DNA from: Deltaproteobacteria bacterium
Lineage (GTDB): Bacteria; Desulfobacterota; Binatia; UBA9968
Length of the DNA: 64,000 nt
Direction: 5' to 3'
Assembly (NCBI GenBank): GCA_016874755.1
Contig: VGTH01000030.1
Span: 1 to 64,000, forward strand
The translations under genes were made by a program, and so were the position numbers. Below the pieces are notes generated by a model. That model worked only from the letters and a program-made list of their open reading frames with translations, was not told the origin of the DNA and searched no databases. The stretch's first letter is position 1. Each line of letters starts with the position of its first letter. Shown here piece by piece: positions 9,642 to 57,161 of this stretch.

Positions 9642-9953
9642 ATGGCACGAGGACATCATGATGTCGGTGGGTTGCCAGGCGCCGGGCCGATCGATCAGAG
9701 CCAGCACGAACTTGCCGACTGGGAAATTCTCGCAGACGCCGTCAACCAGGCGTTGGGCGCACGCGGTGTCAAGCGCACCGATGAGCTGCGCCGGCTGCGC
9801 GAGGAGATGGATGCGGCGGCCTATAAAAATTCTTCCTACTACGAGCGTTGGATTGCCAGCATCGAGGGCATCCTGATCGAAAAAAAAATCCTGACGCGCG
9901 CAGAAATTGACCGCAAAGTTGCCGAGTTCGAAAAAAAGTGGGGTGAGCCATGA
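9642..9953 (+). CDS. nitrile hydratase beta subunit, N-terminal half (split)
   Basis: A 103-residue protein matching only the N-terminal part of nitrile hydratase beta: the HDVGG motif at residues 6-10 and the YYERWIASIEGILIEKKILT helix. It has an AGGAGG eight bases before ATG 9642 and overlaps the next gene by four bases (ATGA). The beta-subunit C-terminal half is a separate gene. The same split is known for thiocyanate hydrolase (scnB, scnA, scnC), so the substrate could be a nitrile or thiocyanate. Confidence 0.85.
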   Translation: MARGHHDVGGLPGAGPIDQSQHELADWEILADAVNQALGARGVKRTDELRRLREEMDAAAYKNSSYYERWIASIEGILIEKKILTRAEIDRKVAEFEKKWGEP

Positions 9954-10252
9954 CCTTTGCACCGGCGACCGGCCGGTTTCGTCCTGGCGATCGCGTGAAG
10001 GTGCGCTTCGAAGATCGCCCGGGCCACATCCGCACGCCGTGGTACGTCCGCGGCAAGACTGGCTTTGTTGAACGGGTCTACGGTGATTTTCTCAATCCGG
10101 AATCGCTCGGCCACGGCGGCGATGGTTTGCCCAAGCGGACTCTGTATCTAATCGCGTTTGCGCAGTCCGACCTCTGGGAAGGGTATCGCCAAAATACACC
10201 GGACAAATTGCTGGTCGACATTTACGACCATTGGCTGGAAAAAGCCGCGTAG
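9950..10252 (+). CDS. nitrile hydratase beta subunit, C-terminal half (split)
   Basis: A 100-residue SH3-like domain protein equal to the C-terminal part of nitrile hydratase beta, with RFRPGDRVKVRFEDRPGHIR at the start, the YVRGKTGFVERV strand pair, and LYLIAF...DLWEGY before a short tail. The Arg-rich loops of this domain normally contact the metal site in the alpha subunit. It is translationally coupled to the preceding N-terminal half and followed 13 bases later by alpha. Confidence 0.85.
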   Translation: MTFAPATGRFRPGDRVKVRFEDRPGHIRTPWYVRGKTGFVERVYGDFLNPESLGHGGDGLPKRTLYLIAFAQSDLWEGYRQNTPDKLLVDIYDHWLEKAA

Positions 10253-10265
10253 GAGGTCTATCCCA

Positions 10266-10904
10266 ATGACTACGACAGCTACCCCCGCCGACGATCACGG
10301 CCATGACCATCCAAAACATGAATTGAGCGCCACCGCCAAAAGAATCTATGCGATCCGCGCGCTCTTGGTCGAGAAGGGTGTTATTAGCGAGAAAGACATT
10401 CAATGCCAGATCGAATATCAAGAGGCGCGCTCGCCGGTTAATGGTGCCAAGCTGGTGGCCCGTGCCTGGACCGACCCTGCGTTTAAGCAACGCTTCATCG
10501 CCGATCCGAAAGCGGCTTGCGCGGAAATGGGCATCGACGCCACTGCCATCAACGAATTTGTCGTTTTGGAAAACACCGAGAAGGTGCGACACATGGTGGT
10601 CTGCACCTTATGCTCGTGTTATCCCAGGCCCATACTCGGCCGCCCACCCGACTGGTACAAAAGCATGAACTATCGCCAGCGCTCAGTCGTCGATCCGCGC
10701 GGCGTGATGCGCGAGTTTGGTCTGGTCTTGCCGGACGATGTGCAGGTCCGGGTCCACGACAGCACGGCGGACATTCGCTACCTGGTATTACCGCTTCGTC
10801 CCAAAGGCACGGAAAAACTGAGCCAAGCGGAGTTGGAAAAGTTGGTGACCCGCGACAGCATGATCGGCGTGATGGACGCTTTGTCAGCAGTGCCCGCCGC
10901 CTAA
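10266..10904 (+). CDS. nitrile hydratase alpha subunit (cobalt type) or thiocyanate hydrolase gamma-like
   Basis: Metal-binding catalytic subunit that hydrates nitriles to amides; the close family member thiocyanate hydrolase gamma converts thiocyanate to carbonyl sulfide and ammonia. The claw motif is CTLCSC at residues 113-118. Thr after the first Cys marks the cobalt type, and the second and third Cys are normally oxidised. YPRPILGRPPDWYK and the end segment LVTRDSMIG are typical. A His-rich N-terminus (DDHGHDHPKH) may help metal loading. Start ATG 10266 follows TAGGAGG. No separate cobalt chaperone is seen nearby, but the N-terminal beta fragment is also homologous to such activators. Confidence 0.88.
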   Translation: MTTTATPADDHGHDHPKHELSATAKRIYAIRALLVEKGVISEKDIQCQIEYQEARSPVNGAKLVARAWTDPAFKQRFIADPKAACAEMGIDATAINEFVVLENTEKVRHMVVCTLCSCYPRPILGRPPDWYKSMNYRQRSVVDPRGVMREFGLVLPDDVQVRVHDSTADIRYLVLPLRPKGTEKLSQAELEKLVTRDSMIGVMDALSAVPAA

Positions 10905-12098: not shown

Positions 12099-12188
12099 GG
12101 GCAAAGAGCGAAGCGGTAAGAGCAAAGAGCACGAACTCCAGATGTGTATCTTACGCTTTGCACTTACCTCTTTGCCCTTCGCGCTTTA
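12098..12188. repeat. hairpin repeat of the CAAAGAG/CTCTTTG type between convergent genes
   Basis: Left arm GGGCAAAGAGCGAAGCG with a second GCAAAGAGC, right arm CTTTGC...CCTCTTTGCCCTTCGCGC. The arms pair over most of their length with a loop near 12140. It lies exactly between the convergent J-domain gene and the SDR, and may act as a two-way terminator. It looks like a variant of the GCAAAGGCGC repeat family seen elsewhere in this window. Confidence 0.6.
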
Positions 12189-12948
12189 GTGCATCACGCC
12201 GCCGCCCTCGACGACAAGTAGTTGCCCGGTGACAAAATCGCTGTCCGAGCTCGCCAAATAAAGCGCTGTGCCGACGATATCGGCAGGGGTTTCGACACGT
12301 TTGAAAGCACGCTTGCCGACGCTGCCTTCGCGCCGCGCTAATACTTCATCTGAGACATTTTCTTCGCTCATGGTCGAGCCCGGCGTCATGCAGTTGACGT
12401 TGATGCCGAACTCGCCCAGTTGGCGCGCCATTACGCGGGTCAACGCCACGACGCCGCCCTTGGCCGTCGTGTAGTGCGGCATGTTGCCCGAGCCGCTGAA
12501 GAACGTGCCCGAGGCGATGTTGATGATCTTGCCGCTCTTTTGCTGCTTCATGATCGGGATCACCGCCTTGGAACAAAGAAACACGCCTTTCAAATTGACT
12601 TCGATGACCCGGTCCCATTCGTCGAGCGCCAGCTCTTCCACCGGCCCCTTCCAGAGGTTCTGCGTGACGTAAATCGCCGCATTGTTGAGCAGCACGTCGA
12701 TGCGGCCAAATTTTTTTCACCGTCTCCTGCATCAGCCCTTGAATGTTGGGCAGCTTGGTAACATCTGTGGTGCGCGCCCAGGCTGAGCCGCCGGCATCCA
12801 GAATCGCTTTAGCGGTTGCTTCGCCGCCCGCCGCATCGATGTCGGCGATGACCACATGAGCCGCTTCTTCGGCGAAGCGGCGCGCGTAGGCCTTGCCGAT
12901 GCCGTGGGCGGCGCCGGTGATGATGGTCACTTTGTCTTTCAGTCGCAT
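12186..12948 (-). pseudogene. short-chain dehydrogenase, frameshifted
   Basis: The N-terminal part (from ATG 12948, behind GGAG) has the NAD(P) motif TGAAHGIG, and the C-terminal part has NNAA, the catalytic YTTAK and the end VVEGGGVMH, but they are in different frames. The switch is at a run of seven A on the coding strand (plus-strand T at 12711-12717). With six A the protein would read [15 protein letters not shown], the expected SDR sequence, and be about 253 residues long. It is either a real frameshift or a homopolymer error in the assembly. The gene is divergent from the GST gene. Confidence 0.8.
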
Positions 12949-13027
12949 GGGCATCTCCGTTGGCGATGGTCGCAATGATTCGCGGTCATGCTAGTGCAAG
13001 GCCGATGTTGATTCAACCGATAATGGT

Positions 13028-13083
13028 TTGACAGGCTGACCGGTCAGCGATTACTGTTGCCCTAGAATCAACTGACCGTTCAG
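13028..13083 (+). promoter_or_regulatory. promoter with two TetR-like operator palindromes before the GST gene
   Basis: TTGACA (13028-13033) is followed by a perfect palindrome GCTGACCGGTCAGC (13035-13048) lying in the spacer, then a weak TACTGT (13052-13057). A second copy differing at one base, CTGACCGTTCAG (13072-13083), overlaps the GST ribosome binding site. TGACCGGTCA-type sites are typical of TetR-family repressors. No tetR gene is present in the window, so the regulator is unlinked. Confidence 0.6.
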
Positions 13084-13096
13084 GAGGTGTTTCAAC

Positions 13097-13726
13097 ATGA
13101 TGACGCTTTATTTTAGTCCCGGCGCGTGCTCGCTGGCTTCGCACATCGGCCTCGAAGAAACCGGCGCGCCCTATGAGCTCAAGCCGGTGTTACTGGCCAA
13201 GGGTGAGCAGCGCACCGAGGCCTACCAGAAGATCAACCCGCGCGGCAAAGTGCCGGCGCTGAGCGTCGACGGAAAGGTGCTCGTAGAGAATACGGGCATT
13301 CTCACGTTTCTGGCGCAGAAGTTTCCCCAGAGCAAGCTGCTGCCCAGCGACGCCGCGGAGGCCGGTCGTTGCGTCGGCACCATGTGCTGGTTTTCCAGCG
13401 TGGTGCATCCGTCATACCAGCGCCTGCATCGCCCCGAGCGGTTCGCCGAAGGTGAAGCGGCCTACGCCGGCGTCAAGGAAAACGGCAAGAAAATGTTCTT
13501 CGCCAATCTGCAAGAGATCGATTCCATGATCCAGGGCAACGACTGGGTGATGGGCAAAGAGTTCACTGCGGCCGATCCCTACGCGCTGGTCTTTTATGGT
13601 TGGGCGGCGCGCAGCGGCTTGCCGGTACAAGATCTCAAGGCGTATAGCGCATGGCGCGAGCGCATGATGAATCGGCCGTCGGTGCGCAAAAGCGTTGAGC
13701 AAGAAGAAAAGGTCGCGGCTTCGTAG
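13097..13726 (+). CDS. glutathione S-transferase, beta-class type
   Basis: Cytoplasmic enzyme conjugating glutathione to electrophiles. The 209 residues have an N-terminal thioredoxin-like domain with SPGACSL at residues 7-13, whose Cys is the beta-class catalytic residue, the NPRGKVPAL cis-Pro loop and VENTGIL. An all-helical C-terminal domain follows. Strong GGAGG at 13083-13087; ATG 13097 is followed at once by a second ATG. The paired palindromes upstream suggest inducible control by a repressor responding to a xenobiotic or aromatic ligand. Confidence 0.9.
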   Translation: MMTLYFSPGACSLASHIGLEETGAPYELKPVLLAKGEQRTEAYQKINPRGKVPALSVDGKVLVENTGILTFLAQKFPQSKLLPSDAAEAGRCVGTMCWFSSVVHPSYQRLHRPERFAEGEAAYAGVKENGKKMFFANLQEIDSMIQGNDWVMGKEFTAADPYALVFYGWAARSGLPVQDLKAYSAWRERMMNRPSVRKSVEQEEKVAAS

Positions 13727-56672: not shown

Positions 56673-56768
56673 CTCTCGTCCTCCGAACGGCTCCGATAGT
56701 ATGACAATCTTCCGTTGGCCCTGAGTTGGTCCAGCAAGCCGTATCGAAGGGCCAAACATTTCTAGACT

Positions 56769-57161
56769 CTATTTCGCCCCCGCCCACCCGGCGTTGGAAA
56801 TATCGATCACCTGATCGTCCGGGCCTACGCATTTTACTTCGAAGTAAGATTGCGGTTTCGCCGGATCGCCGTGATGCACTTCGTTGCGTTCGCTCAAGGC
56901 TTTGCCGCCGAGGCTTTTTACCCTATCAACGAACGCGTCGACGTCGTCGACCTGAAAGCCAATGTGGTCGACGCCGAGCTTCATCGTCTCACCTTCGACC
57001 ACGCCGCGAAAACTCAGGATCGCGATGTTTAAGCTGCCATCGGTCAGATAAATACCGCTTTGACCGAGGCCGACCTGTTCCAGGCCAAAGGCTTCTTTGT
57101 AGAATTGCGCGGTCTTCTCGACGTCGTGGGTGCGGATCGCGATATGCTTGATTTTTGCCAC
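56769..57161 (-). CDS. VOC/glyoxalase family protein
   Basis: A 130-residue vicinal-oxygen-chelate protein with two beta-alpha-beta modules. IKHIAIRTHDVEKTAQFYKEAFGL and LGVDHIGFQVDDVDAFVDRV carry His residues, and QSYFEVKCVGPDDQVIDIS holds the last Glu. Members act as glyoxalases, epimerases or dioxygenases. The GTG start at 57161 follows TAGGAGG, much better than the upstream frame start. It follows a binding-protein gene by 11 bases. Confidence 0.85.
   Translation of the reverse strand: MAKIKHIAIRTHDVEKTAQFYKEAFGLEQVGLGQSGIYLTDGSLNIAILSFRGVVEGETMKLGVDHIGFQVDDVDAFVDRVKSLGGKALSERNEVHHGDPAKPQSYFEVKCVGPDDQVIDISNAGWAGAK

Follow-up and report, generated by a model that had tools for sequence, protein, structure and literature searches.

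A palindrome pair at a glutathione S-transferase promoter of an uncultured Binatia bacterium as a possible lineage-specific operator of TetR type

The window analyzed here, the first 64,000 nucleotides of contig VGTH01000030.1 (assembly GCA_016874755.1), belongs to an uncultured bacterium of the class Binatia and contains a glutathione S-transferase (GST) gene whose promoter carries two related palindromes (Table 1). The NCBIfam GstA model scores the GST product at 114 bits, below the model's cut-off of 198. The short-chain dehydrogenase gene that lies upstream is interrupted by a frameshift in a run of T near position 12713, which may be an assembly error or the mark of a pseudogene. Elsewhere in the window, genes for the beta N-terminal, beta C-terminal, and alpha portions of nitrile hydratase stand in a row (9642-10904), with beta present as two separate ORFs, and another perfect 14-bp palindrome, TTACTTCGAAGTAA (56834-56847), is found just upstream of minus-strand ORFs ending at 56759 and 56832. 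The window proteins scanned included one hybrid histidine kinase and no DNA-binding transcription regulator, in agreement with the initial annotation, which had stated that the regulator is not encoded nearby.

Table 1. Features of the GST promoter region, in window coordinates.
Feature	Position	Strand	Remarks
Short-chain dehydrogenase, divergent, upstream neighbor of GST	12186..12950	-	two overlapping frames; the C-terminal one matches adh_short_C2
-35 element TTGACA	13028..13033	+	most of the family's GST orthologues keep it at this position
Site 1, GCTGACCGGTCAGC in promoter spacer	13035..13048		perfect 14-bp palindrome; its exact 12-mer occurs once in the genome (5.56 Mb)
-10 element TACTGT, 18 bp from -35	13052..13057	+	aligns with the orthologues' conserved TACTCT
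Site 2, CTGACCGTTCAG, in predicted 5' untranslated region	13072..13083		differs from site 1 by one mismatch; its GAC and TCAG come from the inherited leader
Shine-Dalgarno AGGAGG	13082..13087	+	kept in nearly all orthologues
Glutathione S-transferase, closest to GstA (beta) type	13097..13726	+	Pfam GST_N and GST_C

The arrangement originally described, a perfect palindrome between -35 and -10 followed by a one-mismatch copy 36 bases downstream, is present: site 1 lies inside the 18-bp spacer, and the 12-mer of site 2 follows at a centre-to-centre distance of 36 bp, or 3.4 helical turns. Site 2 had also been said to cover the ribosome binding site, but it overlaps the first two bases of AGGAGG alone. 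Because GST orthologues (69-78% identity, mostly from the same family) share TTGACA and TACTCT separated by an 18-bp spacer, followed by a leader of the type TTCAATTCGACAACTCAGGAGGTGTT, site 1 really does sit in a promoter spacer, and the earlier placement of the sites at a GST promoter is borne out. The palindromes themselves were not found in the twelve orthologous upstream regions on which this reading is based, two of which come from the same genus (the aligned set also had a wrong stretch, L018, and a mostly coding one, L023). Orthologue spacers read, for example, TAATAGCTCGTTAGCGCA, with no palindrome in any of them, and the sequence at the position of site 2 is TCGACAACTCAG or similar. 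Seven of the 12 letters of site 2, namely the retained GAC and TCAG, match the orthologues' leader; with these held fixed, a random fill of the remainder comes within one mismatch with a probability of 0.016.

The suggestion that the sites belong to a wider regulon did not survive a scan of the genome. The exact 12-mer has a single occurrence in 5.56 Mb, one-mismatch sites number 11 as compared to 13 for the reversed control and are nearly all inside ORFs, and no second promoter carrying the site was found, so a genome-wide regulon was rejected. The core TGACCGGTCA has ten genomic copies versus five for the control, and the nine besides site 1 all lie inside ORFs. Core copies within genes and no matching regulator, the outcome that the initial annotation took to speak against an operator, is thus largely what is seen for the single site, but not for the pair, which is unique: among 148 genomes of the class it was present in the window's own and absent from the 147 others. 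Seven of 25 family genomes carry the exact 12-mer, and none of the six matches outside the window's genome lies at a GST gene or a TetR gene. TTGACA followed by TGACCGGTCA within 30 bp was matched 6 times in 143 class genomes versus once for the reversed control, with 4 of the 6 matches inside ORFs. A literature search for the 12-mer found no paper.

Four TetR genes were identified in the window's genome (contigs C8, C26, C32, and C49). These four are its only TetR_N genes in 5.56 Mb; the other genomes of the family have zero to seven, and many other families of the class have far more TetR-like matches. The initial annotation had suggested a search for a TetR gene whose own promoter carries the site, but none of the four has the 12-mer upstream within two mismatches. 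Three of them (C26, C32, and C49) have candidate operators of their own that differ from the GST sites, and they were therefore rejected as the cognate regulator: the C26 gene has orthologues in the family whose promoters contain sites like AGTAAGTAAATGCTAACTAA, the C32 gene has TGTATAATTATACA upstream, and the C49 gene is described below. Upstream of the fourth, the family-wide C8 gene, no fitting palindrome was found; its product is a possible regulator of GST. A LacI-family operator was also rejected, as a search with PF00356 found no LacI regulator gene in the genome.

Palindromes resembling the GST sites do precede TetR genes in related genomes. In one genome of the same class (G038; L132, reverse complement 1525-1552), a TetR gene is preceded, at a distance of 44 bp, by the 28-bp perfect palindrome AAACGGAACTGACCGGTCAGTTCCGTTT, whose core is exactly the site 1 12-mer, CTGACCGGTCAG. 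Two genomes of the window's family have ACTGACCGGTCGGT adjoining the -10 element of a TetR gene, and in another family ACTGACCGGTTGGT is located between the -35 and -10 elements of two TetR genes. Site 1 agrees with the G038, ACTGACCGGTCGGT, and ACTGACCGGTTGGT sites at 10-12 of 14 positions (10-11 of 14 for the ACTGACCGGTCGGT and ACTGACCGGTTGGT groups). From their place and symmetry, we infer that these sites are operators, and with an identical 12-mer core before one TetR gene and similar sites before others, to call the GST palindromes TetR-type operator sequences, as was done at the outset, is a fair reading. An orthologue of the G038 TetR was not found in the window's genome, in which the best match shows 31% identity over 96 residues.

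A further group of TetR genes in the window's family, which was not found in the window's own genome, is preceded by paired TGAAC-N4-GTTCA-like candidate operators. In each of the eight promoters that were measured (L071, L072, L075, L077, L081, L082, L089, and L093), the spacing of the two is exactly 20 bp, and such a conserved pair is what a selected pair looks like. The spacing at the GST promoter, by comparison, is off helical phase, which speaks against side-by-side cooperativity, and the cooperative action first proposed for the two sites is not supported.

The window's genome also encodes a TetR protein beside another GST. On contig C49 (L095 6640-8495), a gene for an AcuR-like TetR is followed by a GST gene and then by a GFA-like gene; ACCAACTGGTTGGT precedes the TetR gene and recurs just before the Shine-Dalgarno sequence of this GST. 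The consensus ACYRACYGGTYRGT, which was built from relatives of the C49 TetR, has exactly two matches in the genome, both at this operon. Judged by its gene order and candidate sites, the locus is a self-contained TetR-GST unit. In two genomes of another family (L100 and L101), a TetR-GST pair at 56-59% identity is accompanied by a similar site.

Of the explanations considered, each weighted by our own judgment rather than by calculation, we tentatively prefer that the palindrome pair is a lineage-specific operator of the ordinary TetR kind, although we put this slightly below an even chance. A dimeric TetR-type repressor would bind site 1 and block or exclude RNA polymerase; site 2, about 8 to 20 bases after the predicted transcription start, would add a weaker binding site on the DNA and impede promoter escape; and a ligand, perhaps an electrophile handled by the GST, would release the repressor. 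Since TetR proteins recognize double-stranded DNA, any effect of site 2 would be on transcription only, and repression of the start of translation, which had been proposed in addition, is neither expected nor supported. The location of the palindrome exactly between conserved -35 and -10 elements argues for an operator, as do the palindromic site before the Shine-Dalgarno sequence of another GST of the genome, beside a TetR gene, the shared G038 core, the ACTGACCGGTCGGT and ACTGACCGGTTGGT sites of TetR genes, the excess of TTGACA followed by TGACCGGTCA, and the absence of LacI regulators. Against it are the four TetR genes lacking the site upstream, three of them with different candidate operators, as well as the lack of a second promoter with the site, the orthologues without palindromes, and the 36-bp spacing. 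A more specific form of this explanation, in which one Binatia lineage newly gained a TetR-type operator pair in an old, conserved GST promoter, under a regulator such as the C8 TetR that does not control its own gene through that site, is in our judgment unlikely.

Nearly as likely as a TetR-type operator is coincidence: the GST promoter would be an ordinary one in which drift made a 14-bp palindrome, and the second copy would be mostly inherited leader (GAC...TCAGGAGG) with few letters changed. Perfect palindromes of at least 14 bp number 9 in the window against a mean of 7.4 in Markov-1 simulations, and a single palindrome is therefore nothing remarkable. Palindromes accompanied by a one-mismatch copy no more than 100 bp away arose in 44 of 600 simulated windows (about 7%), or in 12 of 600 when the core had to contain at least four A/T; at the former rate the pair is unusual for one window, yet a few pairs of this kind, most of them within genes, are to be expected in a genome this large. 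The leader letters already present in site 2, with the probability of 0.016 for the remainder, fit this account, as does the failure to find conservation, a regulon, or a cognate regulator in searches of the genome and the class. Against coincidence, the palindrome occupies one of the few spacer positions at which an operator would act, the pair falls in a promoter and not in the coding majority, and the core is identical to that of the palindrome before the G038 TetR gene.

Two other readings would assign the sites to different regulators. The absence of a fitting site upstream of all four TetR genes, and the fact that a palindrome with no gap is not diagnostic of any one family, could indicate operators of a regulator from another dimeric helix-turn-helix family (e.g., MarR, GntR, or ArsR) whose gene lies elsewhere in the genome; this is improbable given that the LacI family is absent and that the closest regulator-linked sites in related genomes precede TetR genes, TetR promoters being the only ones examined. 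Alternatively, the AcuR-like C49 TetR might also control the window GST: among the genome's TetR proteins it is the one linked to a GST, searches of the other family genomes, which likewise lack the palindrome pair, gave no close homologue of it, and its distant relatives carry ACTGACCGGTTGGT in their promoters. We regard this as very improbable, because the two genomic occurrences of its own site, ACCAACTGGTTGGT, are both at its own operon, and this site shares only 7 of 14 positions with each of the window sites.

Should the sites of the preferred, TetR-type reading be functional, they would illustrate on a small scale how control of a detoxification gene is rewired in an uncultured family that has few TetR regulators. 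If they are not, the case shows the frequency with which chance yields operator-like pairs when raw sequence is scanned, and how the promoters of orthologues separate inherited letters from new ones.

According to a survey of Streptomyces (PMC3511530), TetR regulators mostly control divergent neighbors at distances below 200 bp, and this makes an orphan site such as the present one less likely a priori. The GST promoter resembles the tetR-tetA paradigm (PMC3511530) in having two palindromes of roughly 15 bp per promoter region, with a TetR-type core; unlike the paradigm, no adjacent regulator gene was found at the window GST. With the C49 operon it shares a palindromic site just before a GST Shine-Dalgarno sequence and a candidate operator of the same general class, whereas the C49 regulator is encoded in the operon itself and its site differs at half of the 14 positions. 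The palindrome before the G038 TetR gene extends to 28 bp while that of the window GST stops at 14 bp, but the 12-bp core is identical in the two.
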